This document shows, piece by piece, positions 14,364 to 44,833 of a DNA stretch of 64,000 bases. The position numbers were made by a program, and so were the translations under genes. The notes beneath the pieces are model-generated. The model worked only from the letters and a program-made list of their open reading frames with translations, was not told where the DNA came from and did not search any database. Position 1 is the stretch's first letter. Each line of letters begins with the position of its first letter. Source of the stretch: Bacillota bacterium (GTDB taxonomy: Bacteria; Bacillota; Clostridia; Christensenellales; Aristaeellaceae); contig JAKPNM010000053.1 of assembly GCA_029548395.1 (NCBI GenBank), forward strand, positions 1-64,000, written 5' to 3'.

Positions 14364-14891
14364 ATGAAAAAACTGCGGCGCTTCGTCTGGTTCATTGCCA
14401 AGCGGCTGATGCTGATCACCGTGATCCTGGGGTTGATGACGATTGCTTTTTACTTTTCGATGAATGCTGCCAACATTTTTGTCATTCTCAAGGATGGCAT
14501 GGCGCAGCGGGCCTTGACGGTGATGATGGATCTGGATGGCACGGAGCTGCCCAAGTATTTTTCCACTGCTTATTTGCCTGTGGACAAACGGCTGGCGACC
14601 ATGCGCGATGGCACCAATCCCTATGAGCCTTATCAGATCACAGGCATTGACCATCGTTTGCGCATGGAATGGGTATGGGCCTGGCCCTGGGAGGATACCG
14701 CCCGCGCCACCATCATTGAGCAGGTGCCGGGCATAGACGGACGCATCAAGGCCTCCTGGCGCGAGCGCGTCCCAAAGGAGCAGTGGTCGCCGCCGCGCTG
14801 GCCGTCCGCGCGCTATGATGTCATTTTAATCCGGGAGAACGGACGGTGGTTTATCCGCGAACTGCGCAATGAGCGTGCCTACACGCCCTGA
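14364..14891 (+). CDS. Single-TM hypothetical protein
   Basis: N-terminal TM; no recognised family; 13 bp after pyrH. Confidence 0.65.
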   Translation: MKKLRRFVWFIAKRLMLITVILGLMTIAFYFSMNAANIFVILKDGMAQRALTVMMDLDGTELPKYFSTAYLPVDKRLATMRDGTNPYEPYQITGIDHRLRMEWVWAWPWEDTARATIIEQVPGIDGRIKASWRERVPKEQWSPPRWPSARYDVILIRENGRWFIRELRNERAYTP

Positions 14892-14907
14892 GATAAATGT
14901 GTGCAGG

Positions 14908-15990
14908 ATGACATACCCTGTTGCCCAAGCTGTTGAGGAAGCGTTGATGAAACGGAACATGCGTGAATGGAAAGAAGCCCTTATTGCATCGCCAGTCAAG
15001 CAGGCGATGCCTATTTTATCCTTTCCGGGCGCAGGGTTACTGGGGGTCAGGGTGGAACAGTTGGTACGCGATGCCCGTTTGCAGGCGCAGGCGATGCACC
15101 TGGTGGCGCAGCGCACGCCTTCCTGCGCTGCGGTCAGCATGATGGACCTGTCGGTGGAGGCTGAAGCTTTCGGCAGCGCTGTCCATTTTGGGCCGGGTGA
15201 GGTGCCTGCCGTCAAGAATGCCATTGTGCGCCCGCACAGCGCAGACAGCCTGGCAAGACCGGATGTGGGCGCCGGGCGGACCGGGCAGTATGTCGAGGCG
15301 ATTGCCCGGGCCTGCGAATTGATCATTGACCGCCCGGTTTTTTCGGGCGTGATTGGCCCTTATTCACTTGCCGGGCGGCTGATGGGCGTCAGCGACATTA
15401 TGATGGATTGTTTTGATGAACCGCAGGCTGTTCATCTGGTGCTGGGCAAGGCGACTGATTTTCTTGTGGACTACCTGTGCGCCTTGCGCGATGCGGGCGC
15501 CAATGGCGCGGTCATTGCGGAGCCTCTGGCCGGTCTGCTGTCCCCGGCGTTGGCTGAAGAGTTTTCCGCGCCTTATGTGGCGCGCATCGTGACAGCGCTG
15601 CGCGCGGAGGATTTTTTGGTCATCTACCACAACTGCGGAAACAACACGCCCCGGATGATGGACAGCATCCTCTTCACCGGCTGTGATGGCTACCATTTCG
15701 GTGATGCGGTGAATCTGGCGGAACTGGTGCCCCAGGTGCCGGCGGATGCGCTGGTCATGGGCAACATCAGCCCTTCCGCGCAGTTTCTGGGGGGCACGCC
15801 GCACAGCATACGGGAAGCCACGCTGGCCTTGATGCGCGCATGCAGCCCCGGCCATCCCAATTTCATTGTGTCATCCGGCTGTGACATTCCGCCCGGGGTG
15901 CCCTGGGAAAACATTGATGCCTTTTATGAGGCGGTGACAGCATATTATGCCGGTATGCAATCTTTTTCCTCAAGGGAAGATACGCATTGA
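14908..15990 (+). CDS. Uroporphyrinogen decarboxylase-family protein, likely corrinoid methyltransferase-type (MtaA/CmuA-like)
   Basis: URO-D/MtaA-like fold with HNCGNNTPRM (His-x-Cys) motif and C-terminal SSGCDIPPGVPWENIDAF. Confidence 0.8.
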   Translation: MTYPVAQAVEEALMKRNMREWKEALIASPVKQAMPILSFPGAGLLGVRVEQLVRDARLQAQAMHLVAQRTPSCAAVSMMDLSVEAEAFGSAVHFGPGEVPAVKNAIVRPHSADSLARPDVGAGRTGQYVEAIARACELIIDRPVFSGVIGPYSLAGRLMGVSDIMMDCFDEPQAVHLVLGKATDFLVDYLCALRDAGANGAVIAEPLAGLLSPALAEEFSAPYVARIVTALRAEDFLVIYHNCGNNTPRMMDSILFTGCDGYHFGDAVNLAELVPQVPADALVMGNISPSAQFLGGTPHSIREATLALMRACSPGHPNFIVSSGCDIPPGVPWENIDAFYEAVTAYYAGMQSFSSREDTH

Positions 15991-17151: not shown

Positions 17152-17694
17152 TTAACTTCGGCGCATAAAACGATAGCTTTTGGGGCCTACGCGGATAATA
17201 TCACGGTGGTTGAGGGGGACAGGGACTGTATTGGGCAGGAAGTGCCCATTGTGAAACGTGCCGTTGCGGCTGCCCAGATCCTTCAGATAATATCGCTGGT
17301 CTTGCCTGCGGAAAAAAATCTGGCAGTGATGCTTGGTTACCATTCGGAAATTGACGCGCAGGTCGTTGTTCGCTTCCCGTCCCAGGGTGAACGGCGAATG
17401 ATTGATGTCCGCAATTACGCGCTGGGTGTCGCAGTCCACCAGACAATACCGGACCGCCGTGGCGCCGGTTTTACTTTTGGTGTCGATCAGATCGTCCAAG
17501 GATACCTTGCGCCCTTTTGTTGAAGAGAACTTATCCGGCATCAGGTAGTACATCAACGCAGTCAACAGGACCAACAGACACAACAACACCAGGCTCAGGG
17601 TGAAATCCAGCACCGCGATAACAGCCAGAAGAACAAGCACAAATATCAGCACAGCAGCACATATCTTGCTTTTGGCAGGTGTGTTGCTTCGCAT
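17152..17694 (-). CDS. Membrane-anchored FHA domain protein
   Basis: Two N-terminal TMs, then FHA core LGREANNDLRVNFRMVTKHHCQIFF...LKDLGSRNGTFHNG. Confidence 0.9.
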   Translation of the reverse strand: MRSNTPAKSKICAAVLIFVLVLLAVIAVLDFTLSLVLLCLLVLLTALMYYLMPDKFSSTKGRKVSLDDLIDTKSKTGATAVRYCLVDCDTQRVIADINHSPFTLGREANNDLRVNFRMVTKHHCQIFFRRQDQRYYLKDLGSRNGTFHNGHFLPNTVPVPLNHRDIIRVGPKSYRFMRRS

Positions 17695-18125
17695 TGTGTC
17701 CTCCTTGTGAAAACTTCCCTCTTAGTGTACAAAAGCTCCTGTGAATTGGCAAGCCTGCAGGTGCTGTATGCCCAATGCCGCACACTGCCGTATGGCAGGC
17801 TTTGTTTTCACAAGGGAAAACCGCCGAAAAACCAGCGTTTCCATTGACAAATCCATTATACATTTGTAGAATCATGTTGCGTCAAGACAGGTATGCATGA
17901 TGCAAATGCACTATGGCTGTCTTTACCTCACAGGCTGTCAGGCTGCGCTTTACGTTGATATGTGAAGCTGCGCCTGACAGGAATTTCTATGGTCAAAGCA
18001 GCGGAGCAACAGGTCACTGCTTTGTCTTTCTGTATTTCATTACTCGCTGGCTTGATGTTCTCCTGTGTCTGACAAACATCCGGGTTTTTGCCCGGGGCTG
18101 TGCACGAAAAGATTTGAGGTGTCGA

Positions 18126-20483
18126 ATGAAGTATCTGCAACGCGCCACTGCCTGTGTGCTTGTAATGCTCATGCTCGCAGCGGTCGTCTTGCCTGTGCTG
18201 GCAAGTTCTATCACGTTTTTGAGGGTTATCAAGCTCGAACAGGTCAAGGAAGGCCATGTGCTGCGGATGGGGATCAAGGCTTCGGACGATGCCGGCCGTG
18301 GACAGCGCCAGGCAGGCGGTCAGATTTCTGTGTCGGTCAACGATGTGCCAGTGCATCTGGTTGATATCACCGGTTCTGAAATTGGACATTTATTACTTAT
18401 TGACACCACCACGCCTTCCCATTCCCAGAGTTGGAGCTATGATGTGATCCGGGCAATGGCCCAGGCTTTTGTCAATGCGATTCCCTTGGATGAGCGTGTG
18501 ATGATTATCACCTTTGATGATAAAGGCGCCTATGATCAGGGCTGGCAAAGCCCGCAGGAAGCACTGTCTTTCATCAGCTCCATCCAGCCCTCCTCACAAA
18601 CCCGGGCGCGATTGTATACAGCGCTAAAACGGGCTCATATCCTGATCCGGGAGCCCAGTAAAGGCGATGACCCTGCTTTTATCAGTTCTATTTTCACTGT
18701 GACCGATGGTTCACCCTCCCTTAGCAGTTACCAGGACATGGGCAGCCTGATTTCTGACAGGAGTTATATCAATTTTGTTATTGCCCGCCCCTATTCCAGC
18801 GTAGTTGTCAACAGCAACTCAAACGCGGGCAAAGCGTTTATCAACAATCAGGCTTTGCTGCAAAGCATCGCCTCACAGCAAAACGGCAAACTGATTGATT
18901 GCGAAACGCCCAGGAACGGGATGCCCGACATAAATGGCCTGTACCGCGAAGTGTACGACATGCTCAATGCGGATTTGTATTACGAGTTTAGTCTTGATCC
19001 CCTGATCGGCAAGGTTCAATACAAAGCGGATGACCTGGTCATGGTAAACATCCAGGCGGGAAATGTCAGTGTAAAGGTGCCCATCGAAGTGGACACCTTG
19101 TCCCTGCCCACGCCCACGCCTACGCCCACGCCTATACCTACGCCTACGCCTACACCTACGCCCACGCCCGCTCCCGAGGCAACTGCAACCAAGCCTGCAG
19201 AGAAAATGACACCCACACCCACCCCGACCCCTTCGCCGGAGCCCTTGATGGTCGAATATGGCAAGGCCAGTTCCAATGCGCGTCAGGCGCGGTATTTCCT
19301 GCATCTTTATAATTATATGGAGGATCACTACACCGAAACCGAGGTGTTTGACAAAGCCGCCCAGCAAGCCTTTGATGAGTTTGCCATAAGAAACGGGCTG
19401 GATACGACGGATGGCATCTATGCCGGTGCTTTTGCGATACTGACAGATCCCTCCAAGATCCCGGTCACCTATCCTCCGCCCAGCCCCACGCCCAGCCCGA
19501 CGCCGACGCCTACCCCGGAACCTACCCCAAGCCCTGAGCCGACACCCCGGGCCATCTATCTCAATGAGGAAGATCCGATTGATGGCAAGGACCTGATTTT
19601 GCCTATGCAGATGAAATTGGAATCGCTGGGCTACTATGCGGCAATCAATGAGACATTTTCTCCCAAAAAGCTTGATCAGGCTACGCTGAACGCCTTGGCT
19701 CTGTTCGCGCAGACCAAAGGAATTGCAAACGAAGCGCCCAATGGCGTCAGCGTTGGGCTGCAGGAAGTGCTCCTGAAAGGTTCCTACGAGCCGTTTACGC
19801 CTTCGCCAAGCCCCAAGCCGCCGGGATTTGTAGATAACCTTCGCGCCAGGATGAGCCAAACACTCAGCATCGGCAGTTTGAAAGTTCCCTTTTGGACGAT
19901 CATCGCGCTGGTCGGCTTGTTGTTGCTGGGAGTAATCATCCTGATTATTCTGCTTCGCAGCGGTCATCAAACCTCTTCGGTCTCCGGCGCGGGCATTCCT
20001 CTTGATCCCTTGGGACAGGGAGACGGTCAAACCAAGGAGGAAGGGACTAAAAAGACAGCTGTCATAACAGGCGAATGGCGTAGGACTGGCAGTAAGACTG
20101 TTGCCATGGACAATTTAGGACTCGCGGTTAATTTCCATATTCAGTTTATGGGCCGCAGTGAAACCACCCATGACTTTGTGTCCCAGCGCTTCACGATTGG
20201 ACGGGAGAACTGCACTTTACTTCTGGATGCCAGGGACATGAGTGTTTCCAAAGAGCATGCCGAATTGAACTATCATGATAACCAGCTGGTTATCATAGAT
20301 TCGAACAGCACCAATGGTACTTTTGTCAATGGTATGCGCGTGCCCAGTATCAAGGATGGCATGATGCCCGTCGGTGGAGATATGAACAAGACACTTGAAT
20401 TGAAAGGCGATGTCTTTGGCCGCGTGATCAACAACGGCGACATCCTCAAAATAGGGATGCATCAGATCACGATTACCTGGTAA
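18126..20483 (+). CDS. Secreted VWA domain + TP-rich linkers + TM + cytosolic FHA domain protein
   Basis: Signal peptide MKYLQRATACVLVMLMLAAVVLPVLA; VWA-like LLLIDTTTPSHSQSW...TVTDGSPS; TM FWTIIALVGLLLLGVIILIILL; C-terminal FHA FTIGRENCTLLLDARDMSVSKEHAELNY...DSNSTNGTFVNG. Start taken at ATG 18126, not the ORF-track 17913. Confidence 0.85.
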   Translation: MKYLQRATACVLVMLMLAAVVLPVLASSITFLRVIKLEQVKEGHVLRMGIKASDDAGRGQRQAGGQISVSVNDVPVHLVDITGSEIGHLLLIDTTTPSHSQSWSYDVIRAMAQAFVNAIPLDERVMIITFDDKGAYDQGWQSPQEALSFISSIQPSSQTRARLYTALKRAHILIREPSKGDDPAFISSIFTVTDGSPSLSSYQDMGSLISDRSYINFVIARPYSSVVVNSNSNAGKAFINNQALLQSIASQQNGKLIDCETPRNGMPDINGLYREVYDMLNADLYYEFSLDPLIGKVQYKADDLVMVNIQAGNVSVKVPIEVDTLSLPTPTPTPTPIPTPTPTPTPTPAPEATATKPAEKMTPTPTPTPSPEPLMVEYGKASSNARQARYFLHLYNYMEDHYTETEVFDKAAQQAFDEFAIRNGLDTTDGIYAGAFAILTDPSKIPVTYPPPSPTPSPTPTPTPEPTPSPEPTPRAIYLNEEDPIDGKDLILPMQMKLESLGYYAAINETFSPKKLDQATLNALALFAQTKGIANEAPNGVSVGLQEVLLKGSYEPFTPSPSPKPPGFVDNLRARMSQTLSIGSLKVPFWTIIALVGLLLLGVIILIILLRSGHQTSSVSGAGIPLDPLGQGDGQTKEEGTKKTAVITGEWRRTGSKTVAMDNLGLAVNFHIQFMGRSETTHDFVSQRFTIGRENCTLLLDARDMSVSKEHAELNYHDNQLVIIDSNSTNGTFVNGMRVPSIKDGMMPVGGDMNKTLELKGDVFGRVINNGDILKIGMHQITITW
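19107..19166 (+). repeat. Hexanucleotide microsatellite (CCYACR)x10 encoding the PTPTPT linker
   Basis: Ten consecutive 6-bp units CCCACG/CCTACG/CCTATA/CCTACA; a second TP-rich tract is at about 19480-19550. Confidence 0.9.
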
Positions 20484-20492
20484 GGAAAGCTG

Positions 20493-21662
20493 ATGAATCA
20501 ACCAAACGGCTCTGCCCGCGCGGTATCCCGGCAGGTGCCGGCGGGCAGGTGCCTGGCCTGCATGAAGACGTTGACGCCGGCCGACATCCGGGAATGCAGC
20601 GCTTGCCACAGCACGCTGCCCTATGTGAGCAAAGACAGCACTTTGCTGGAGCCTGGCGCTGTGCTGAAGGGGCGCTATCAGATTGGCCGTCCCTTGGGCA
20701 GCGGCGGTTTTGGCAACACCTATCTGGCGTTTGATTTGGCAAGCCATTCTGTGTGCGCCGTGAAAGAATATTTTTTGCGCGGGGCTGCCGTCAGGGACAG
20801 GAAAAGCAGCCTGGTGCTGGTTGAGCAGGGCAGGGAACACGCGTTTAAACGTTTTCGCGACAGTTTCATAAAAGAGGCCCAACAGCTTAGCCAATTGGGC
20901 GCCATACCTGGTATGGTCAGGGTCTTTGATGTGTTCCAGCAAAACAATACAGCGTATTTTGCGATGAGCTATGTTCAGGGACAGACGCTCAGGAATTGGT
21001 TGCTGGAACAGAAAGCCCCCCAGGCATTGAATGACGTCTTGGCAATGGTCAATGAATTGCTGGATATTCTTGGTCGGGTGCATGCCCGGGGCATCCTGCA
21101 CCGTGATGTCAGCATGGACAACATCATCCGCGGATCAAACGGAGAGCTGACCCTGATCGATTTTGGCGCCGCGCGCCAGGCCGGCAAACCGGAAATGACG
21201 GTCTACCACAAGGGCGTTTATACTGCGCCGGAGCAAAAGCTGGGTGTCACGCAAGGCCCGTATACGGATATCTACGCAGTAGGGGTTATCATGTTTGCCC
21301 TGCTCCATGGCCGCTTGCCCCATGAGGATCAAAACCGCCTTGAGCCATTGCCGGGTTTGCCGCAGGACATTCAGGCGCAGTTGGACCGTATTTTCCGAAA
21401 GGCCACCCATCCAAGGACTTCCGCCCGTTATCAGCAAACAGCGCAGATGCGCGCAGAACTGCAACAGGTTGCCTTGCGTGCTGACGGTTATCGGCTGTCT
21501 CTTTCAAGGCCCCGGCGCCCCCTGCGAGGGATGCTCCGTACCCCAAAAGGCAGCCGGGAGATTAGGCTGAAGATTTTGCTGGCTGTGTTTTTGTTTTTTT
21601 TATTGCTTCTTTTGCTTGCCATTGTCTTAGGTGATGCGGGTTTTCAAGGTGTAACGGATTGA
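20493..21662 (+). CDS. Zinc-ribbon Ser/Thr protein kinase with C-terminal TM
   Basis: CxxC...CxxC N-terminus; P-loop GSGGFGNTYLAFD; HRDVSMDN; DFGAAR; APEQ; C-terminal TM. Confidence 0.93.
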   Translation: MNQPNGSARAVSRQVPAGRCLACMKTLTPADIRECSACHSTLPYVSKDSTLLEPGAVLKGRYQIGRPLGSGGFGNTYLAFDLASHSVCAVKEYFLRGAAVRDRKSSLVLVEQGREHAFKRFRDSFIKEAQQLSQLGAIPGMVRVFDVFQQNNTAYFAMSYVQGQTLRNWLLEQKAPQALNDVLAMVNELLDILGRVHARGILHRDVSMDNIIRGSNGELTLIDFGAARQAGKPEMTVYHKGVYTAPEQKLGVTQGPYTDIYAVGVIMFALLHGRLPHEDQNRLEPLPGLPQDIQAQLDRIFRKATHPRTSARYQQTAQMRAELQQVALRADGYRLSLSRPRRPLRGMLRTPKGSREIRLKILLAVFLFFLLLLLLAIVLGDAGFQGVTD

Positions 21663-21692
21663 TGTGCTAATGTATTCGATGGGAGATAGCAG

Positions 21693-24600
21693 ATGGTAAA
21701 ACCGGGAGACGTGCTGTGTTATTCCTGCATGAGGGAAGTAGTCGCGGGCAAGAGCTGCCCCTTGTGCGGTGCGCCCATACCATATGAGGCGCGGGATGTA
21801 TTGGACCTAAAACCCGGCACAGTGCTCAACGGCAAGTATACGATCGGCCGCTGCCTTGGCAGGGGCGGCTTTGGCGCGACTTACCTGGCTATGGAAAGCA
21901 GCCTGGGCGGGCGCTTTGCGATCAAGGAGTATTTTTATCAGGCTTGCTGCACCCGCGCGGTAGATTCCAATGAGATTGTTGTCAAACCGGGCATGGAGGA
22001 GGATTTCCGCCGTTTCAAGGAGAAATTCCACCAGGAAGCGCGCAGGCTGCAGGAGTTCCAGCATTCCCCGGGGGTGGTGAAATGTCTGGAGTACTTTGAG
22101 GAAAACGGCACCGCTTATTTTGTAATGGAATATCTTGAGGGTGTCACCCTGATGGACTTTATGAGAAAACGCGGCACCACTCTGACAGCGGATGAGCTTA
22201 TTCCCATTCTTCTGCGGGCGCTCAAGGCGCTGGAACAGGTACACGCCAAGGGCTATATCCACCGTGACATTTCTCCGGACAACCTCTTTTTGCTTCAGGG
22301 CGGAGAGATCAAATTGATAGACTTCGGCTCGGCCAGGCAGACCAGCGCGCGGTCCATGACCCGCCTGGCTAAGGGCAGCTATACCGCGCCTGAGCAGGAG
22401 TTTAACCGCGAGCAAACCCCGGCTACCGATTTATATGCCCTGGGCGTCAGTATTTTCACGCTGCTGGTCGGTAGGCAACCGGAGAAGCAGCCTTTAACAG
22501 GAAGCGGAAGCCGCTATAAGCTGGAGCCTCTGCCGGCAGACACCCCTCCTTCCCTGCAATCAATTTATACCAAGGCAACAGCCTTTGACGCCAAGAGCCG
22601 CTACCGGACCGCGCCGGAGATGGCCGCCGCGATAAACCTGGCTTTCCCCGGCTTTATCCCGACTACCGGCAGCTATACAACTTTCTCACCGTCCCCAAAG
22701 CGTCAGATCGGGCGCATTATCGGGCTTGTGAGCATCCTGCTGGCGCTTGCTGCCGTGGTTCTCATCCTCCTGAATCAGCCGTCAGCGCTTACTAGCGAAG
22801 TTACCATCCGCTACTACAACCAGCAAGGGAATTTGCTTAATACAGTCAATCAAAGCTTTTCAAAAGGCACCTACACCATTACCGCGGATGATGATATGGT
22901 ACCGCCGGGGCATCTGCTTACAAGTGAGCGTGAACAATTCCTTCGGGTCAATGAGGATGGCTCCGTATCTCCTGGAAACATTGATTTTATCTACATGCAA
23001 ACTGCGCAGTCTGCTGCGGGCAGCGTGACCTACGATCTGTTGCCGGATCAGGATGGCGGGCTGTTCATTATTATTAACGGCGGCGCTTCCGTCTCCATTC
23101 AGATGACGCCCCATGAGCTGGTGCGCGCGAATCTGGTAACTGAAAAACATTTGGCTTACCCGCTGTATTTGATCCACCGGGAATCCGGCAACCGTTTTCA
23201 GGTTGTTGACAGCCTGGACGGTTCCACAGCCGTTGGTCTGCAGCCGGGGATATATGATGCAGCATTAGATTTGTCCGGGAATGATCTTCTTTCGAAAGCC
23301 CCCCTGGAAATCCGTGCAGGGCAAAGCGATTATCAGCTGTTTTTTGATGATGACATCCTGGCGTTTTTCAACGACTACGGGGCTTTGCCCCTGCCCGCTG
23401 ACCAGGCGCTGGTGGATTATGGCGCCGGTCCTTACAGCACAGACAAGTTGGAAAAGGTACGCCTGACCGTGTTTGCTGAGCAGGCGCAGCCTAATGACCT
23501 GCGCCGCTTGATGTATCATGTGAACTTGCATATGGATGTGCCTCAAGGGTTGAGCGACAGATTTGAGTTGATTCCAAACGGTCAAGACAGAGGCATATCC
23601 TTCAGTCAGGAAAGCGCTGCATCCCTGCGCATGACATCAGGCACTTACGAAGTCAGGATGTATATTGGCGCAGCGGAATTTGAAAGCCTTGAACAAATCA
23701 CAGTTAAAGCCGATAAAGTTCAGCAGAATCTGTCAGTCAGCTTCAACCTGGACGACGCGATGAGCTTAGCAAAGACTGCCGCGTATAAAATAGCGGACAA
23801 CGACGTGACGAAATTCATTGGCCAGCAGTTAGGCAATGCAACCGGCTTGACGCTTTCCAAGGTCAGCCTCAAAACCAACCTGATCAATCTGTATGGTATC
23901 AATGACGATGACGTTGTCTTTCGTTTGCGCCTTCAAAACGACGACAACCTGCTCAGCGACCCTTTGCCGGTTAAAAGCCTTGGCACCACTGTTCATCTGA
24001 GCCCCGGATCGTACACGCTTCAGGCGGAGATGAACAACCAGACCCTTATATCCGAGCCTTTTTACGTTGCTTACAACAATGATGTAAGCCAAACTTTGAA
24101 TTTTGACACCTCTGTGCTGACGCGGTGGACACCCCCGCCTGAAGGCTCGGTCGTTTTTGCCTACGACCTGGATCACGATGAGCGCAATGGTTCCATGATG
24201 GTTGTTGTTGGCAAGGACGCCGAACTGATTATGAACAATCCGGTGGCCCTGTACCCGGTCGCCCTTAGTCTGGATTTGCCGCCTTATATGGTAGAAAATA
24301 AGCAGTTCACCCTTGAGCACCATGAAAGCGGGATGACGCTGAATGCGCCTTACTATGGCGTTGAGCCTCATCAAATGCGTTTGATGGCCGGCAGCTATAC
24401 ACTGAGCATCACCAACAAGGATACGCCGTTTGAAGCGGAGCAACCTTTTCTTGTTGATGGTAATACTGAACAAATAACAATCTTATTTGATCAAAACGCT
24501 ATTGTGTTTTATCAAGAAAATGGCTTGTTGCCCCTGAAGCCGGATGCCATGGTGCTCAGGGCACGAGGCGCTACCCTGCTGGGCAGGACAGGACAGAAGC

Positions 24601-27407
24601 CGCTTGAGGTGGATGCCCGTCTCGCGGCTGGTCATGAGGCGTTCAATGCCGGGCAGATCCCTTTGTACCCGGTGACCATTCGGGTGGATTTGCCACGTGA
24701 ATATGACAATGCCGTCAGCCTGACCCTGGCGGATAACCCGGACATTGCTATTCCGCTTGCTTTGCGCCCCGGGCCAGTAGAAATGCAGGTGTCAGCCGGC
24801 TCTTACCGGCTCAGTTATTCCGTCAATGGTGTGCCTGTGTACTCCCCGGTGTTTGCCTTCGGTCCAAACGCCGCTGCCGATTATCATTGGCAGCTGGACG
24901 ATGCGATGGCGGATGAATACCAGCGGTTCGGTTATTTCACCGCGCAGCGTGGCGCGGACAAGGAATCCTATCAGAAACTGGGGTCTGAAAAATATCATTG
25001 GCCTCAATTATGTCTGGCTTTGCCCATGTATGAAACTCCCATCAGCACCAACATGGATCGAATAACGGGCTTTCACCATGCGTTAATCACGGGTCTTGAA
25101 ATCGTCAATACCCTGACAGGCAAGGCTTATAATGTCCTGCCTCTTCTGGACAGCGGCATGAGCCTCAGTGGCTTGCAGGTAAGCAAAGGCTGCTATCTGT
25201 TGAGGCTGCACACCAAAGGCGGCCAGGTAGACAGCAGTGAAACCTTTGCTGTGGACGGGAAAAAGGATGCGTCATACAGCGTGAGTTTCAACCAACAGGC
25301 TGTGCTGAGCTTGCTTCCGGCGCCATTGCCTGAGGGTAGTTTTGTGATCGGACGTGAAGGTAAAGACAGGATTGAGGTCATGCTCATCAAGGATGGCCAG
25401 GAGATCCCGGCGCAGGCTCCCGTGCAGCTTTGGCCGGTTGAAATCACCACCAACCTGGGCAAGAAGCATCAGGAAATGATCCTCAGGCATACCCAGTCCG
25501 GTCAAACCACCAGCTTGGCTCTGAAGGACGGCAAAGCGCATATCTTGGCGTCAGCGGGCACCTATGTGCTGGAAGCCCTGGTGTCCGGCATACGGCTGAC
25601 TCCACAGGGCCTGCCAAATTTTGTCATTGCAGACAAGAAAGTGTCTTTGGATGTAAAATTCGGTTTGTTGTCCGGTGTCACCTATCCCAATGGCCAGCCA
25701 TCAGGCGATGTGACGGCAGGAGACCGGATTGTTGCTGCCCTGGATTTTGGCAGCAATGCGCCTGCTTCCGTCCAAACCATGTCCTCGGACAGCAAGATTG
25801 TCAGCATAGAACAAGATCATAGCAATCTGTCCAGAGTAGTGATCCGTGTGTTGCGAAAGGGTACCGCGACGGTCACCATTACTGATGGGATCAGCCGGTA
25901 TTCTCTGGACTTGAAAGTCAAGGCATATGAGTTTGCGGCGGCTAAGGAGCAATTTGCGCTGTATGCCGGCGGCAGTGTCAAGGCCGGATTTCTGGATAAG
26001 GACGGCGTTTCGCTCTCCGGGTCTTACCTGGAGGCAAACGATGTCAAGGGGCTGAAAGTCAGCGCGGGAGAGAACGGCCTGGTGATTTCCTCCGTAGTGC
26101 CTGGCACCTATGATTTGCCGGTTACATGTCTGAATACTACCATCACGGTCAAGGTTCAGGTCTATGACGATATAAAGGGCAGCCCCATACCGCCGGCAAG
26201 CATGTCTGTAAACGAAGTTGTCATGATGGATTTGCCAACTTACTCCGGGACGCTCAACAAGCTGGAGATTCCTGCTGATTCCGGAGGTGTTATCAAGGTA
26301 GAAAAGGATGCGGACAACCCGCAGCAGCTGCGCTTGCATGCCCTGAAAACCGGCACGGCAGAGCTGGTGTTGACTTTGGACGGGCGCGTAAGAACGCTGG
26401 GCACCATAGAGGTAATCAGGTTAAACACAGCGCATATCAAAAACGGCGTAGGTTTTTTCGGCACATATTTCTTTCTTGATGAGTACGGTCAGACACTCCT
26501 TTTTAAGCGCGGAAGTGATCGGGCCTATAACGTACTTGAACCGAAATTCATCAAACTCCTTGCCAATGACACCGTGGTGGTCGGGCTGACTGAAGAAGGC
26601 GAATTGTATGCCTACGGCAACAAGATAAACCTGGACAGGTGGTTTGACAGGGTAAGTAGAGGCCGTGTGACCTTGAACTATATGGACATCAAAATCAAGG
26701 ATTTTTCTTTGACCGATTCCAGCCTTGTATATATCCTGAAAGAGAACGGAATCATGCAATCCGATGGCAGGCGGCAATTTGTGAAAGCGGGCGGATTATG
26801 GATGCATTTCCCACGCACTGCGGAAGACGCCCCGCTGCGGCCATTGCAAGTGTCCCACGATCCAGTTGTTCCCGGCACGCTGGAGCTGCAGCCAAGCAAT
26901 TCCCGGTCCCATAACTTTCTCGCGGTTCCCGAGGGATCTCAGGATGGCTTGAATCAAGTATTTACGATCGGCCATGATTCCCGGTACGCACGCGTCAATC
27001 CGCAGATCAATGCCGGCAACGCAACCCTGAACCCTGTTCGTGTATGGGCTGCGCAGGATGCGCTGTTCATCCTGACCGCGGAAGGCCGGCTGTATTCCCG
27101 CGAAACCAACCAAAAGGACTACAGGCTCGTCAGGAATAATGCTGATTTTAATTCTTTTAATCTTGTCCATGTCCTGCCCATGAACAACCATACTTATTTC
27201 CTGGACAATCAGAACAGACTCTATCTTTCCGGCAAAACTTCAGACAGCCTCTATAAGCAGATTACGCTGGTGGCGCAAGAGGTTGCCTGGATGCAGCAGG
27301 TTTCATCCGAGGATGTGATGCTGTTCCACACGGATGGCTCAATCAGCCTGTACCAGAACGGTGTGGCCGTTTCTGAGGTATCGCGCTTAAAAATCAAGTA
27401 TCCATAG
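21693..27407 (+). CDS. 1904-aa zinc-ribbon receptor Ser/Thr kinase with repetitive ectodomain and RCC1-like C-terminus
   Basis: CYSCMREVVAGKSCPLC; GRGGFGATYLAME; HRDISPDN; DFGSAR; single TM at about 22715-22775; ~1540-aa extracellular region with repeated Ig-like modules; RCC1-like segments such as VVGLTEEGELYAYGN. Confidence 0.9.
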   Translation: MVKPGDVLCYSCMREVVAGKSCPLCGAPIPYEARDVLDLKPGTVLNGKYTIGRCLGRGGFGATYLAMESSLGGRFAIKEYFYQACCTRAVDSNEIVVKPGMEEDFRRFKEKFHQEARRLQEFQHSPGVVKCLEYFEENGTAYFVMEYLEGVTLMDFMRKRGTTLTADELIPILLRALKALEQVHAKGYIHRDISPDNLFLLQGGEIKLIDFGSARQTSARSMTRLAKGSYTAPEQEFNREQTPATDLYALGVSIFTLLVGRQPEKQPLTGSGSRYKLEPLPADTPPSLQSIYTKATAFDAKSRYRTAPEMAAAINLAFPGFIPTTGSYTTFSPSPKRQIGRIIGLVSILLALAAVVLILLNQPSALTSEVTIRYYNQQGNLLNTVNQSFSKGTYTITADDDMVPPGHLLTSEREQFLRVNEDGSVSPGNIDFIYMQTAQSAAGSVTYDLLPDQDGGLFIIINGGASVSIQMTPHELVRANLVTEKHLAYPLYLIHRESGNRFQVVDSLDGSTAVGLQPGIYDAALDLSGNDLLSKAPLEIRAGQSDYQLFFDDDILAFFNDYGALPLPADQALVDYGAGPYSTDKLEKVRLTVFAEQAQPNDLRRLMYHVNLHMDVPQGLSDRFELIPNGQDRGISFSQESAASLRMTSGTYEVRMYIGAAEFESLEQITVKADKVQQNLSVSFNLDDAMSLAKTAAYKIADNDVTKFIGQQLGNATGLTLSKVSLKTNLINLYGINDDDVVFRLRLQNDDNLLSDPLPVKSLGTTVHLSPGSYTLQAEMNNQTLISEPFYVAYNNDVSQTLNFDTSVLTRWTPPPEGSVVFAYDLDHDERNGSMMVVVGKDAELIMNNPVALYPVALSLDLPPYMVENKQFTLEHHESGMTLNAPYYGVEPHQMRLMAGSYTLSITNKDTPFEAEQPFLVDGNTEQITILFDQNAIVFYQENGLLPLKPDAMVLRARGATLLGRTGQKPLEVDARLAAGHEAFNAGQIPLYPVTIRVDLPREYDNAVSLTLADNPDIAIPLALRPGPVEMQVSAGSYRLSYSVNGVPVYSPVFAFGPNAAADYHWQLDDAMADEYQRFGYFTAQRGADKESYQKLGSEKYHWPQLCLALPMYETPISTNMDRITGFHHALITGLEIVNTLTGKAYNVLPLLDSGMSLSGLQVSKGCYLLRLHTKGGQVDSSETFAVDGKKDASYSVSFNQQAVLSLLPAPLPEGSFVIGREGKDRIEVMLIKDGQEIPAQAPVQLWPVEITTNLGKKHQEMILRHTQSGQTTSLALKDGKAHILASAGTYVLEALVSGIRLTPQGLPNFVIADKKVSLDVKFGLLSGVTYPNGQPSGDVTAGDRIVAALDFGSNAPASVQTMSSDSKIVSIEQDHSNLSRVVIRVLRKGTATVTITDGISRYSLDLKVKAYEFAAAKEQFALYAGGSVKAGFLDKDGVSLSGSYLEANDVKGLKVSAGENGLVISSVVPGTYDLPVTCLNTTITVKVQVYDDIKGSPIPPASMSVNEVVMMDLPTYSGTLNKLEIPADSGGVIKVEKDADNPQQLRLHALKTGTAELVLTLDGRVRTLGTIEVIRLNTAHIKNGVGFFGTYFFLDEYGQTLLFKRGSDRAYNVLEPKFIKLLANDTVVVGLTEEGELYAYGNKINLDRWFDRVSRGRVTLNYMDIKIKDFSLTDSSLVYILKENGIMQSDGRRQFVKAGGLWMHFPRTAEDAPLRPLQVSHDPVVPGTLELQPSNSRSHNFLAVPEGSQDGLNQVFTIGHDSRYARVNPQINAGNATLNPVRVWAAQDALFILTAEGRLYSRETNQKDYRLVRNNADFNSFNLVHVLPMNNHTYFLDNQNRLYLSGKTSDSLYKQITLVAQEVAWMQQVSSEDVMLFHTDGSISLYQNGVAVSEVSRLKIKYP

Positions 27408-27534
27408 CGCTCACGCCAAGCCCGGACAACTGTTTTTGATGTATAATAAGCAAGCGCTGGATGGATGATGGAGCTGTTTTCCCTGGCGAGATCATGGTGA
27501 ACTGTCAATCTGTCGAAGAATCGAGGAGAAGATC

Positions 27535-28422
27535 ATGAAGAAACTGTTGGCGTTGTTGTTGATTACCACGCTTGTGATGCCCCTTTCAAACGGTCTGGCA
27601 GCCGGCAAGAGAGAGCCAAAGCTGATCCTGTTGCCCATGCAGGTAGGAGAGGTCAGCCAGGCGATCCAGGGGGAAGGAACCTGGCGCAGCGAGCATCCGG
27701 ACATCGCAGCCGTATCGGATCAAGGGGTCATTACCGCGCTGGCGGAGGGCTACACCCTGGTGCTGCTCAGCAACAAGAAAAACGAGGTGACTGTCCGGTG
27801 TGAGGTCCAGGTTGGTGAAAAGCCGGTGCCGGAGGAAATCACCCGTGTGATTGAATCAGCCCTGGCCGACTGGGCTGCGGCGGATGGAAAGCCTCTGCCC
27901 CGCTATAATGAATATACCAAATGGTTCAATCCGGCCGCCAAGGACGGCTTTGGCTGGTGCGGCGCCTTTGTCGGCCTGCATTTTGACAAGGCCGGCATTG
28001 AGATGAACAAGGAGTATCGCGCCAAGAATGCCCCGCCGCTTGCGGACGGCTCCCTGTTCGCGGTACGCCAGGCCTCCCAGACCAAGCTCTACGAAGGCTT
28101 TCAGAGCCGCAACCGCCTCAGCAACCTGCCTCGCCCGGGCTATTACATTATCTATGGCAAAAAGGGCAGCACGCCCTACACCCATGTCGGCCTGATTACT
28201 GCGGTAAAGGACATGGGGGAGGGCGTCTACCTGCTGGAGACCGTGGAGGGCAACCTGAATTCGCGCATCAAACGCTACAGCTACCTCTATGACAGCCTGG
28301 CTGAGCGCAAGGACCGTAACATCAGGCCCATCCCGGCTGAAATGCAAACCCGGCCGGATGAGTTCAACTATGAGTATGTCAAGGATTTTTATATCAATGT
28401 CTTTGGGCAGACCTGGTATTGA
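27535..28422 (+). CDS. Secreted protein with Big-like N-terminal module and CHAP-like cysteine peptidase/amidase domain
   Basis: Signal peptide; TWRSEHPDIAAVSDQGVITALAEGYTLVLL; GWCGAFVGLHF...YTHVGLITAV. Confidence 0.75.
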   Translation: MKKLLALLLITTLVMPLSNGLAAGKREPKLILLPMQVGEVSQAIQGEGTWRSEHPDIAAVSDQGVITALAEGYTLVLLSNKKNEVTVRCEVQVGEKPVPEEITRVIESALADWAAADGKPLPRYNEYTKWFNPAAKDGFGWCGAFVGLHFDKAGIEMNKEYRAKNAPPLADGSLFAVRQASQTKLYEGFQSRNRLSNLPRPGYYIIYGKKGSTPYTHVGLITAVKDMGEGVYLLETVEGNLNSRIKRYSYLYDSLAERKDRNIRPIPAEMQTRPDEFNYEYVKDFYINVFGQTWY

Positions 28423-30774: not shown

Positions 30775-32007
30775 CCCCGGATTGAAAAATCAAGTGCAAC
30801 ACGTCGCAACACTGGAAGAGAGCTTTGCTGAGTTGATTATATCGCTCAATTTCTTCTCGAACAACTCCTCAGGCGTCTTGTAACCGAAGCGTTTGCGCGG
30901 CAGTTGGTTAATGTATCGATTGATTCGAACCAAGATGTTCGGAGCTAAGTCAGTCAGGTTCATGCCTTTGGGAAGGAACCGGCGAACAATACCATTCCAA
31001 TTCTCCGAGGTTCCCCGTTCATAACTGCTGTAGGGATGTGCATAGTAGGCCGTTATGCCGCCTTTGTTTTCAATTTCCTCTGCTGATGAGAACTCAGGGC
31101 CATTGTCAAAGGTGATGCTTTTGAATACCCCGGAGAACAGTTCTCCGTATTCCCGCCTCAACTCAAGAAGAAAAGTCACAACCTTGTCCGCTCCCCGGTC
31201 TTTGGCGTCCCAGACAATGCCATAGCTGATGCTGCGCTCCACCAAAGTCAGCAAATGTCCTTTCTGACCTTTGCCGATGATGCCGTCGCATTCCCAATGC
31301 GCAAATTCGTTCCGCTGATTGATACAATCCGGTCGTTCATCTATGCTTCGTCCCAGAATTCGCTTCCTGACCCGCGCGCGTTTCTTCCCTTTCAAGCGCA
31401 CTTTGAGCAGCAGGTCGATGTTCCGAATCCTCAAGAAGCCGGCGTCAACCCAGTTGTAGACGGTCTTTGTGCTGGGGATTACCGGAAACATCTGATGCCG
31501 CTTTGCGTAGCCGACAACCGCGTCAATGGACCACTTCTCAGGCCCGAGCACCTTCCGCTCCAGGAACTGCACAAAATCCGCACATTGCGCCAGCTTGCAT
31601 TTCGCGCCTGTATTCATCCGACGTTCCTGGTATAAGCGTTGCGCGGAATCATGATAATAGCGCTGCACAGTTCTGTACAGGGGAACATTGATGGACTTGC
31701 TATAGGTCTGCACGTTTTCCCGCTGCTCCACCATGTTTCGCTTTAGTTCACGGCCAATGGTGCTCCAGTGACGGCAGAGTATTCTCCCAATCTCTGTATT
31801 GCTTAATCCTTGGCGTTTGAGTCGTTCAATACATTTTCGTTCTGATTCCTGGATGTGATGATACTTCTTTGTCCTTGTGCTATACTCGACTTGGCTCATG
31901 GTGCGCCTCCACGTGTTGTTTTCTGCAAAAACTATCATACCGTGTTTGCGCAACATGAGCTGTTCCTATCTTCTCATGTCTGTTGCACTTCGTATTTCAA
32001 TCCGGGG
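30775..32007 (-). mobile_element. IS30-family insertion sequence, apparently complete (1233 bp)
   Basis: 27-bp terminal inverted repeats CCCCGGATTGAAAAATCAAGTGCAACA / CCCCGGATTGAAATACGAAGTGCAACA (24/27 identical), intact transposase, flanking direct repeats. Confidence 0.92.
30790..31899 (-). CDS. IS30-family transposase
   Basis: HTH (YHHIQESERKCIERLKRQGLSNTEIGRIL), DDE residues in HWECD, FDNGPEF, ERGTSEN; ORF may start at 31956. Confidence 0.95.
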   Translation of the reverse strand: MSQVEYSTRTKKYHHIQESERKCIERLKRQGLSNTEIGRILCRHWSTIGRELKRNMVEQRENVQTYSKSINVPLYRTVQRYYHDSAQRLYQERRMNTGAKCKLAQCADFVQFLERKVLGPEKWSIDAVVGYAKRHQMFPVIPSTKTVYNWVDAGFLRIRNIDLLLKVRLKGKKRARVRKRILGRSIDERPDCINQRNEFAHWECDGIIGKGQKGHLLTLVERSISYGIVWDAKDRGADKVVTFLLELRREYGELFSGVFKSITFDNGPEFSSAEEIENKGGITAYYAHPYSSYERGTSENWNGIVRRFLPKGMNLTDLAPNILVRINRYINQLPRKRFGYKTPEELFEKKLSDIINSAKLSSSVATCCT

Positions 32008-43202: not shown

Positions 43203-44833
43203 TAGGCGTGCTGCTGATGGGCCGTTACCGCCTGGAGGAGCGCATCGGGGAGGGCGGCATGGCCGCGGTCTACCGCGCGCTGGACCTGCGCACCGGGCAC
43301 AGGGTCGCGGTGAAGTTCCTGCGCCAGGAGCTGCAAGCCAACCAGGAGTTTTTGGACCGCTTCCGCCGTGAGGCCACCGCGGCCAGCCGCATGTCCCATC
43401 ACAACATCGTCAACCTCCTGGACATTGGCGACAACCCCAGCGCGCCTTATCTGGTGTTTGAGTTTGTTGACGGAAAGACGCTCAAGGAGATTATCGCTGA
43501 ACATGGCAAGTTGCCCCAGGGTACCGCGGTGCAGATTGCCATAAGGATTTTGTCGGCCTTGCGCCACGCGCATGAGGCAGGGGTCATCCACCGGGATATC
43601 AAGCCGCAAAATGTGCTGGTGGACCGGCAGGGTTATATCAAGGTATCCGATTTCGGCATTGCGCGCATGGTGGACACCAATACGCAGGATGGCGAAAGCA
43701 GGCAAAGCGTGATGGGCTCCGTTCATTATTTTTCGCCGGAGCAGGCGCGCGGGGAGACGGCAACCGCAGCATCGGATCTATATTCGGTAGGCTGTGTGCT
43801 ATATGAAATGCTGACCGGCAGGATGCCTTTTGAAGGGGAAACTCAGGTGTCCCTTGCCATGCAGCACCTCCAGGCGGAACCCAGGCCGGTGCGCGAACTG
43901 GCTCCGGAAGTCTCGGCTGCGGTGGCGGCTGTTGTGCACAAGGCGCTGGCCAAGGATCCGGCCGCGCGGTACCCGTCCGCCCTGCTGATGGCGCAGGCGC
44001 TGCACGACGCGCTGTTGCCTGAAAAGGACAATAAGCTTGCCACAATGTCGGATTTCCGGAGAAAGCCCAGACCCAAGATACGCATGCGGACCCGCCATAC
44101 GCTGCTGACCGGCGTGTTTGTGACGCTGCTGGCAATCGTGCTGCTGCTGGGCGTGTTTGGTGGCGCCTATCTGATCTACCGCGATGTGGTCAATACGACG
44201 CGCACGCCCTTGCTGACCGGTTATTTGCTGGAGGCTGCCATACGGGAGGCGGAGCAGGACGGCATCATTATTCGCGTGGCACGCAACCCCAGCGATGAGC
44301 CTGTGGACACAGTGATTGACCAGAGCTATGATGTAGGTACACCCATCAAACGGGGCGACGTATTGTTGCTGGTGGTTTCCTCGGGCCCTGCGCGCAAGCC
44401 GGTTCCGGGTCTTTTGGGGAAAACTGTCAGTGTGGCGAAGTCACAGCTGGAACGCATCGCACTGGAGATCCTGGTCATCAAGGAGCTGATCAACCCTGCG
44501 CCTAAGGGCACAGTGCTTTCTCAGGAGCCCCAGGAGGGCACGGTGGTAGATGCAGGCAGCATTGTACAGTTGGTGATATCAGCAGGCCAGACGGTGGTGC
44601 CCGAGCTGAGCGGTCGGGTCTGGACAGAAACAGCGGACATCCTGCGCAAAGTCAAGCTGGTTCAGGGCAAGGTAAGTGAAATTGAGACCGAGGACGTCAC
44701 GCAGCATGGCAAGGTCGCTTCGCAGCTGCCTGTGGCAGGGGAGAAGGTGGGGGAGAATACCCCAGTGGATCTGGCGGTGTATGTAGCTCCCGCGCAGCCA
44801 TCACCCAATCCCAAAAACGAGGGTGGTTCATGA
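43199..44833 (+). CDS. prkC: PASTA-domain Ser/Thr kinase
   Basis: Hanks kinase motifs (HRDIKPQN, DFGIAR), TM, three PASTA-like repeats. Confidence 0.96.
   Translation: MIGVLLMGRYRLEERIGEGGMAAVYRALDLRTGHRVAVKFLRQELQANQEFLDRFRREATAASRMSHHNIVNLLDIGDNPSAPYLVFEFVDGKTLKEIIAEHGKLPQGTAVQIAIRILSALRHAHEAGVIHRDIKPQNVLVDRQGYIKVSDFGIARMVDTNTQDGESRQSVMGSVHYFSPEQARGETATAASDLYSVGCVLYEMLTGRMPFEGETQVSLAMQHLQAEPRPVRELAPEVSAAVAAVVHKALAKDPAARYPSALLMAQALHDALLPEKDNKLATMSDFRRKPRPKIRMRTRHTLLTGVFVTLLAIVLLLGVFGGAYLIYRDVVNTTRTPLLTGYLLEAAIREAEQDGIIIRVARNPSDEPVDTVIDQSYDVGTPIKRGDVLLLVVSSGPARKPVPGLLGKTVSVAKSQLERIALEILVIKELINPAPKGTVLSQEPQEGTVVDAGSIVQLVISAGQTVVPELSGRVWTETADILRKVKLVQGKVSEIETEDVTQHGKVASQLPVAGEKVGENTPVDLAVYVAPAQPSPNPKNEGGS

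Follow-up and report, generated by a model that had tools for sequence, protein, structure and literature searches.

A kinase/FHA gene block in an Aristaeellaceae genome is probably the detached control half of a type VII secretion system

What is the function of two FHA proteins, two zinc-ribbon kinases and a secreted CHAP-like enzyme that stand side by side in a Clostridia genome? The question arises from positions 17152-28422 of the window, a 64,000-nucleotide stretch of contig JAKPNM010000053.1 (here C63) from the Bacillota bacterium assembly GCA_029548395.1 (here G000; family Aristaeellaceae). A first-pass annotation had read the five genes as an undescribed locus in which an envelope sensor signals to FHA proteins and controls wall remodelling. 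An open reading frame (ORF) check confirmed all five genes with their positions and strands (Table 1), including the proposed gaps of 9 bp between VWA-FHA and KIN1 and 30 bp between KIN1 and KIN2, while 127 bp separate KIN2 from the CHAP gene. Four of them, FHA1, VWA-FHA, KIN1 and KIN2, probably make up the kinase/FHA half of a type VII secretion system (T7SS), detached from a core that lies on another contig of the same genome, C115. Because relatives of the block in other genomes sit inside T7SS loci, it most likely acts as a T7SS control unit, and a new system for cell-wall signalling is the less likely reading. We infer this function from sequence-based support, namely homology, linkage in relatives, co-occurrence, intact catalytic and FHA motifs, and topology.

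The distribution of VWA-FHA links the block to type VII secretion. A search with the whole protein matched 145 of the 151 family genomes, mostly through its Pro/Thr linker, and a VWA-only profile was therefore adopted, with seeds picked by similarity to the window protein and not by T7SS context. This profile matched nine of the 151 genomes and an EssC profile 24, with both present in eight. EssC thus occurs in 8/9 VWA genomes vs 16/142 others (Fisher p=1.1e-6, or 6e-6 without the window's own genome); the EssC profile was built from four VWA genomes and could favour them, yet it still recovers EssC in 16 genomes that lack VWA. In G003, G060, G097, G102, G125 and G127 no more than 10 kb separate VWA and essC, and in G035 the two lie at the ends of short contigs. 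A T7SS control module should be encoded with, or co-occur with, EssC and WXG100, and EssC was present in eight of the nine VWA genomes, six of them with linkage and the window's own with the parts on separate contigs. Loci fetched around true VWA-FHA relatives were either T7SS loci or lay near contig ends beside T7SS-type parts. Moreover, in L037, L038, L039, L155, L156 and L199 a transmembrane (TM)-FHA gene adjoins VWA-FHA or its FHA half, with EssC nearby, and FHA1 shares its architecture with these TM-FHA proteins. In an order-wide search VWA-FHA was found in 2/396, both in this family and in no other. Among the 11 genomes of the genus, G000 alone has WXG100 and confident FHA genes, with one weak FHA match in G154. 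The first-pass annotation had named scattered genes in close relatives as grounds for giving up the locus, and this expectation came true in part, as the block is missing altogether from close relatives and occurs within T7SS clusters in more distant ones. The co-occurrence check that it proposed ties VWA-FHA and TM-FHA to T7SS loci, a link it had missed, and leaves the CHAP gene independent.

Pfam searches of the window for FtsK/SpoIIIE and WXG100 turned up no T7SS core gene. The genome is a metagenome-assembled genome (MAG) of 1.89 Mb in 141 contigs, 68% complete, and its only FtsK/SpoIIIE and WXG100 matches over the cut-off are on C115 (FtsK_SpoIIIE 2.5e-52, in two stretches; WXG100 4.6e-12). 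There the genes follow in the order N-lobe protein, PP2C, TM-FHA (188 aa, with the architecture of FHA1), YukD-like protein, EssC (1527 aa), WXG100-like proteins, TPR protein and further WXG100, which brings together the EssC ATPase, WXG100 and YukD-like protein of a T7SS. The YukD-like protein (77 aa) had no match in Pfam and resembles proteins of L040, L039 and L196. The N-lobe protein (1091 aa as called) has a zinc ribbon, a kinase N-lobe without C-lobe and a TM segment. Neither a VWA-FHA (VWA profile) nor a kinase with C-lobe (PF00069) was found on C115; the three PF00069 matches of the genome are all on C63, the third being a separate PrkC-like kinase at 43226-43975. In G060 the contiguous order is kinase (minus strand), N-lobe protein, PP2C, VWA-FHA, FHA, YukD and EssC, and C115 repeats this order minus the kinase and VWA-FHA. 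Because both missing genes are contiguous with the same genes in G060, the window block appears to supply what C115 lacks. The C115 EssC also groups with those of G060 and G035 (Shimodaira-Hasegawa-like approximate likelihood ratio test, SH-aLRT, 98), two genomes that have VWA-FHA and zinc-ribbon kinases. Tetranucleotide correlations with the window flanks are 0.93 for the locus and 0.94 for C115, the same as for window pieces among themselves, and speak against recent import from a compositionally very different organism. Between the WXG100 genes of C115, L164:7615-8991 encodes a 458-aa protein with a start resembling WXG/LXG-type helices and no Pfam match, a candidate T7SS substrate.

The encoded proteins fit a phospho-signalling module, as the first-pass annotation had held. 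Both FHA proteins (Pfam 6.5e-19 for FHA1, 6.2e-14 for VWA-FHA) and both Hanks-type kinases (1.9e-29 and 2.4e-34) are genuine members of their families, and together they probably form such a module, with KIN2 receptor-like by its architecture. The core FHA residues are conserved across the TM-FHA proteins, the usual Ser before His being Thr in FHA1. The VWA domain of the single VWA-FHA protein stays under the Pfam cut-off (13.4 vs 23.8 bits), but was borne out by a profile of six relatives that matched solved VWA domains (BatB 4e-7, integrin alpha-1 0.017). Its longest ORF begins at 17913; signal sequence and homology favour the start at 18126, which was kept, and this gives a signal/TM segment plus a second TM. 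Among six aligned family members PG_binding_1 was found in three and PG_binding_2 in one, with no Pfam match for either in the window's copy. A structure model of VWA-FHA made without alignment had a predicted local distance difference test score (pLDDT) of 37 and was not used.

Both kinases keep the G-loop, Lys, Glu, HRD and DFG motifs and a CxxC...CxxC zinc ribbon, each with one TM, and their nearest solved kinase structure is PpkA. A related-locus search with KIN1 gave three distant loci only, one of them in a Clostridiaceae MAG. Repeats in the KIN2 ectodomain gave self-alignment scores of up to 98 vs a shuffle maximum of 45. The repeat model is beta-rich with moderate pLDDT (71), and a fold search with it returned nothing below E=0.001, only non-significant adhesin-, pilin- and carbohydrate-binding-module-like matches. 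Further along, a Big_2-like region was recognised by inspection and an RCC1-like match at residues 1612-1802 is weak (Pfam, E=0.06). The zinc-ribbon kinases of G060 and G035 are similarly built, with zinc ribbon, kinase and then an ectodomain containing PG_binding_1 or Big_6. Two other identities were considered and rejected: the kinases carry no PASTA domain and score 147 and 142 bits against a PASTA kinase cut-off of 450, and the PADLOC matches behind an anti-phage defence role are generic kinase matches. Elsewhere in the family, 20 kb of G140 (L161, G140:C47:1-20000) hold five zinc-ribbon-type kinases with varied ectodomains and two PP2C-like genes, and this genome has 11 matches to the kinase profile.

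Several observations weigh against the block being half of a T7SS. The two halves sit on different contigs of a MAG that is 68% complete, and co-occurrence at the genus level amounts to a single event. Zinc-ribbon kinases are also found in genomes without EssC, such as G027, where they accompany PP2C, N-lobe and FHA proteins, so that the kinases alone do not imply a T7SS. The tree of zinc-ribbon kinases does not resolve the placement of KIN1 and KIN2. Finally, G051 has VWA without an EssC match; it is 80% complete with its kinase at a contig end, and PP2C and an N-lobe protein flank its VWA-FHA.

The alternative that survives best, though we consider it unlikely, is a stand-alone envelope-sensing phospho-signalling operon with CHAP as its output enzyme and a T7SS link that is ancestral only. 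The genes make up a self-contained locus in which the kinases are intact and which includes a large ectodomain and parts resembling peptidoglycan-binding domains, and no T7SS core gene turned up around it in the window; moreover, a sequence scan reported no plus-strand terminator-like site between KIN2 and the CHAP gene. Against this, VWA-FHA tracks EssC, a T7SS without just these parts is present in the same genome, and the CHAP gene behaves independently of the other four. The CHAP protein itself falls just under the Pfam cut-off (25.3 vs 26 bits) with visible Cys and His motifs. Its orthologues, 66-75% identical, occur in all six same-genus genomes searched, in unrelated and changing gene contexts and without the FHA and kinase genes, and for this reason it is excluded from the module. 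The CHAP gene is a neighbour, and of the five-gene locus four genes belong together; wall remodelling as the output is not supported. CHAP is present in 75 of the 151 family genomes and shows no positive link to EssC, occurring in 8/24 genomes that have EssC vs 67/127 that do not, which also speaks against a dedicated T7SS hydrolase like EssH. The latter is a CHAP hydrolase needed by the T7SSb of S. aureus (PMC13059805), and this explains why linking CHAP to the system was tempting.

Slightly less probable still is a decaying or displaced remnant, moved away from the T7SS by a rearrangement and no longer acting on it. The order rpsB-tsf-pyrH-hyp-dus is conserved in the genus, and in the seven relatives whose sequence extends far enough a phosphoribosyltransferase-like gene and guaA come after dus, either at once or behind additional genes. 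In the window the kinase/FHA block follows dus instead, and because the conserved order breaks here the block lies at a rearrangement or insertion point. An IS30-family-like transposase (30790-31956) lies 2.4 kb beyond the CHAP gene, between thrS and the gmk region and near this synteny break. However, all four ORFs are intact, catalytic and FHA motifs are kept, two kinases are retained and the T7SS core is present in the genome. In the same region, a uroporphyrinogen decarboxylase/corrinoid methyltransferase-like gene (14869-15990) between hyp192 and dus is absent from this place elsewhere in the genus.

A third cluster type was seen in G027 (L162, G027:C29:172001-191000), where a kinase, an N-lobe protein, PP2C, TM-FHA, large Ig-like proteins and a double-FHA ATP-binding cassette (ABC) transporter stand together in a genome without an EssC match, and which we read as the same phospho-toolkit on another exporter. 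That the window's set serves such an FHA-ABC machine, its T7SS parts being shared by modular reuse, is very improbable, as VWA-FHA is absent from G027 (VWA profile) and G000 has only three FHA matches, none of them in an FHA-ABC protein.

If the block is a T7SS control unit, which of the known systems does it resemble? Garrett, Higginson and Palmer (2024; PMC11217815) described subtypes T7SSc-T7SSj, whose gene sets include kinases, PPM phosphatases and FHA proteins, joined in T7SSc by a VWA protein. They suggested that phosphorylation may regulate some T7SS, an idea of which the passages of the paper used here report no test. According to these passages, the EssC-type ATPase, WXG100 and YukD-like protein are common to both, and counterparts exist in the membrane kinase with ectodomain TsxD, the PPM phosphatase TsxF, the separate FHA protein TsxJ, the VWA protein TscE and possibly the large Ig-like TsdI/TseI. 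Unlike in those subtypes as described there, here a single protein combines VWA, wall-binding-like repeats, TM and FHA, zinc ribbons occur on the kinases and on the N-lobe-only pseudokinase, a repeat ectodomain is fused to a kinase, and the kinase/VWA-FHA half is encoded apart from EssC. DUF6382, found in TsxJ of T7SSe, T7SSf and T7SSj, was not detected by Pfam in FHA1, VWA-FHA or the C115 FHA protein. TscE is cytoplasmic without signal peptide or TM, whereas the VWA domain here is in a protein with a signal/TM segment and a second TM before FHA. Set beside TsxI of T7SSd, T7SSe and T7SSj (large, Ig-like, signal peptide, C-terminal TM), KIN2 has a long repeat ectodomain but is a kinase, and no separate TsxI was seen on C115, an incomplete contig. 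Since the combination departs from the published definitions that were compared (DUF6382-FHA and cytoplasmic VWA), we regard it as a probable new T7SS variant, set apart from the named subtypes by their published descriptions. It is found in none of the eight T7SS subtypes as the consulted parts of PMC11217815 describe them, and no later papers using the T7SSc-T7SSj names were found in the literature searched. The earlier reading, a new signalling system for wall remodelling, is not upheld; the best reading is a T7SS variant with this combination, undescribed in the literature found.

In S. aureus T7SSb, too, a T7SS is accompanied by a membrane component resembling a kinase, the pseudokinase EssB, and by a CHAP enzyme, EssH (PMC11217815, in the parts consulted, and PMC13059805). 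KIN1 and KIN2 differ from EssB in being probably active, judged by their motifs, and the window's CHAP gene differs from EssH in not tracking T7SS. The N-lobe proteins possibly represent an EssB-like pseudokinase partner of the PP2C phosphatase. This family of zinc-ribbon, kinase-N-lobe-only membrane proteins (L043:5206-8397, L041:2942-6895, L040:3013-4206, L162:5523-8024, L158:424-1842) has a common motif (FRDAQGQPLMSVNALPIPPLP-like) ahead of the TM and genes directly upstream of PP2C, and in G035 the protein is apparently fused to PP2C. PASTA kinases (PrkC/StkP) and the MAD6 and PD-T4-6 kinases share the Hanks-type Ser/Thr kinase fold, but KIN1 is far under their NCBIfam cut-offs (147 vs 450 and 121 vs 460 bits). 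The best working analogy, though not membership, seems to be the threonine phosphorylation pathway of the type VI secretion system (T6SS), in which PpkA phosphorylates Fha and PppA reverses this (PMC10482370). A membrane Hanks-type kinase, an FHA reader and a PP2C phosphatase are common to both, and there they control a secretion machine after an envelope cue; that machine is a Gram-negative T6SS, and no T6SS gene is implied here.

By this analogy, an envelope cue read by the repeat/propeller ectodomain (seven repeats, Big_2-like, RCC1-like) would activate KIN2, and KIN1 as well, and the kinases would add phosphate to threonines of membrane partners in the T7SS. FHA1, VWA-FHA and the C115 TM-FHA might then bind these phosphothreonines through their FHA domains and so help the EssC machine to assemble or fire, with the C115 PP2C resetting the system. 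The VWA and peptidoglycan-binding-like parts of VWA-FHA could anchor the complex in the wall, and the whole circuit would work like the PpkA-Fha-PppA control of type VI secretion.

Table 1. Features of the locus and their positions in the window.
Feature	Position	Strand	Evidence
FHA1: two-TM hairpin and cytoplasmic FHA domain, 180 aa	17152..17694	-	PF00498 6.5e-19
VWA-FHA: signal/TM, extracellular VWA, Pro/Thr linker and peptidoglycan-binding-like repeats, TM 592-610, cytoplasmic FHA, 785 aa	18126..20483	+	
KIN1: zinc ribbon (C20-C38), Hanks-type kinase with intact catalytic motifs, C-terminal TM 361-379, 389 aa	20493..21662	+	
KIN2: zinc ribbon, Hanks-type kinase with intact catalytic motifs, TM 342-360, 1542-aa ectodomain, 1904 aa	21693..27407	+	
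KIN2 ectodomain: seven divergent beta-rich repeats, about 100-190 aa each	22779..25667	+	self-alignment and repeat model
KIN2 C-terminal part: Big_2-like region, then RCC1-like propeller	25668..27404	+	inspection; weak Pfam
Secreted CHAP protein, neighbour judged not in module	27535..28422	+	
Promoter-like site for VWA-FHA operon: TTGACA-17-TAGAAT	17844-17872	+	11/12, consensus scan only; not functional evidence
Promoter-like site for FHA1: TTGCCA-17-TACACT	17752-17724	-	consensus scan only; not functional evidence

We see an even chance that these genes represent an undescribed T7SS subtype of one Clostridia family. Its hallmarks would be a VWA-TM-FHA protein that binds the wall, receptor kinases with zinc ribbons, and a zinc-ribbon pseudokinase reduced to the N-lobe and paired with PP2C (once apparently fused). 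With the kinase/FHA half encoded in trans in this species, a separate locus would switch secretion by T6SS-like threonine phosphorylation. The link to wall remodelling that the adjacent CHAP gene suggested was tempting but wrong, and the analysis corrects it. The family offers a compact, testable parts list of kinase, reader, phosphatase, pseudokinase and wall anchor, and the physical split of the control half from the machine lets one ask whether a Gram-positive T7SS fires after threonine phosphorylation, as the Gram-negative T6SS does.

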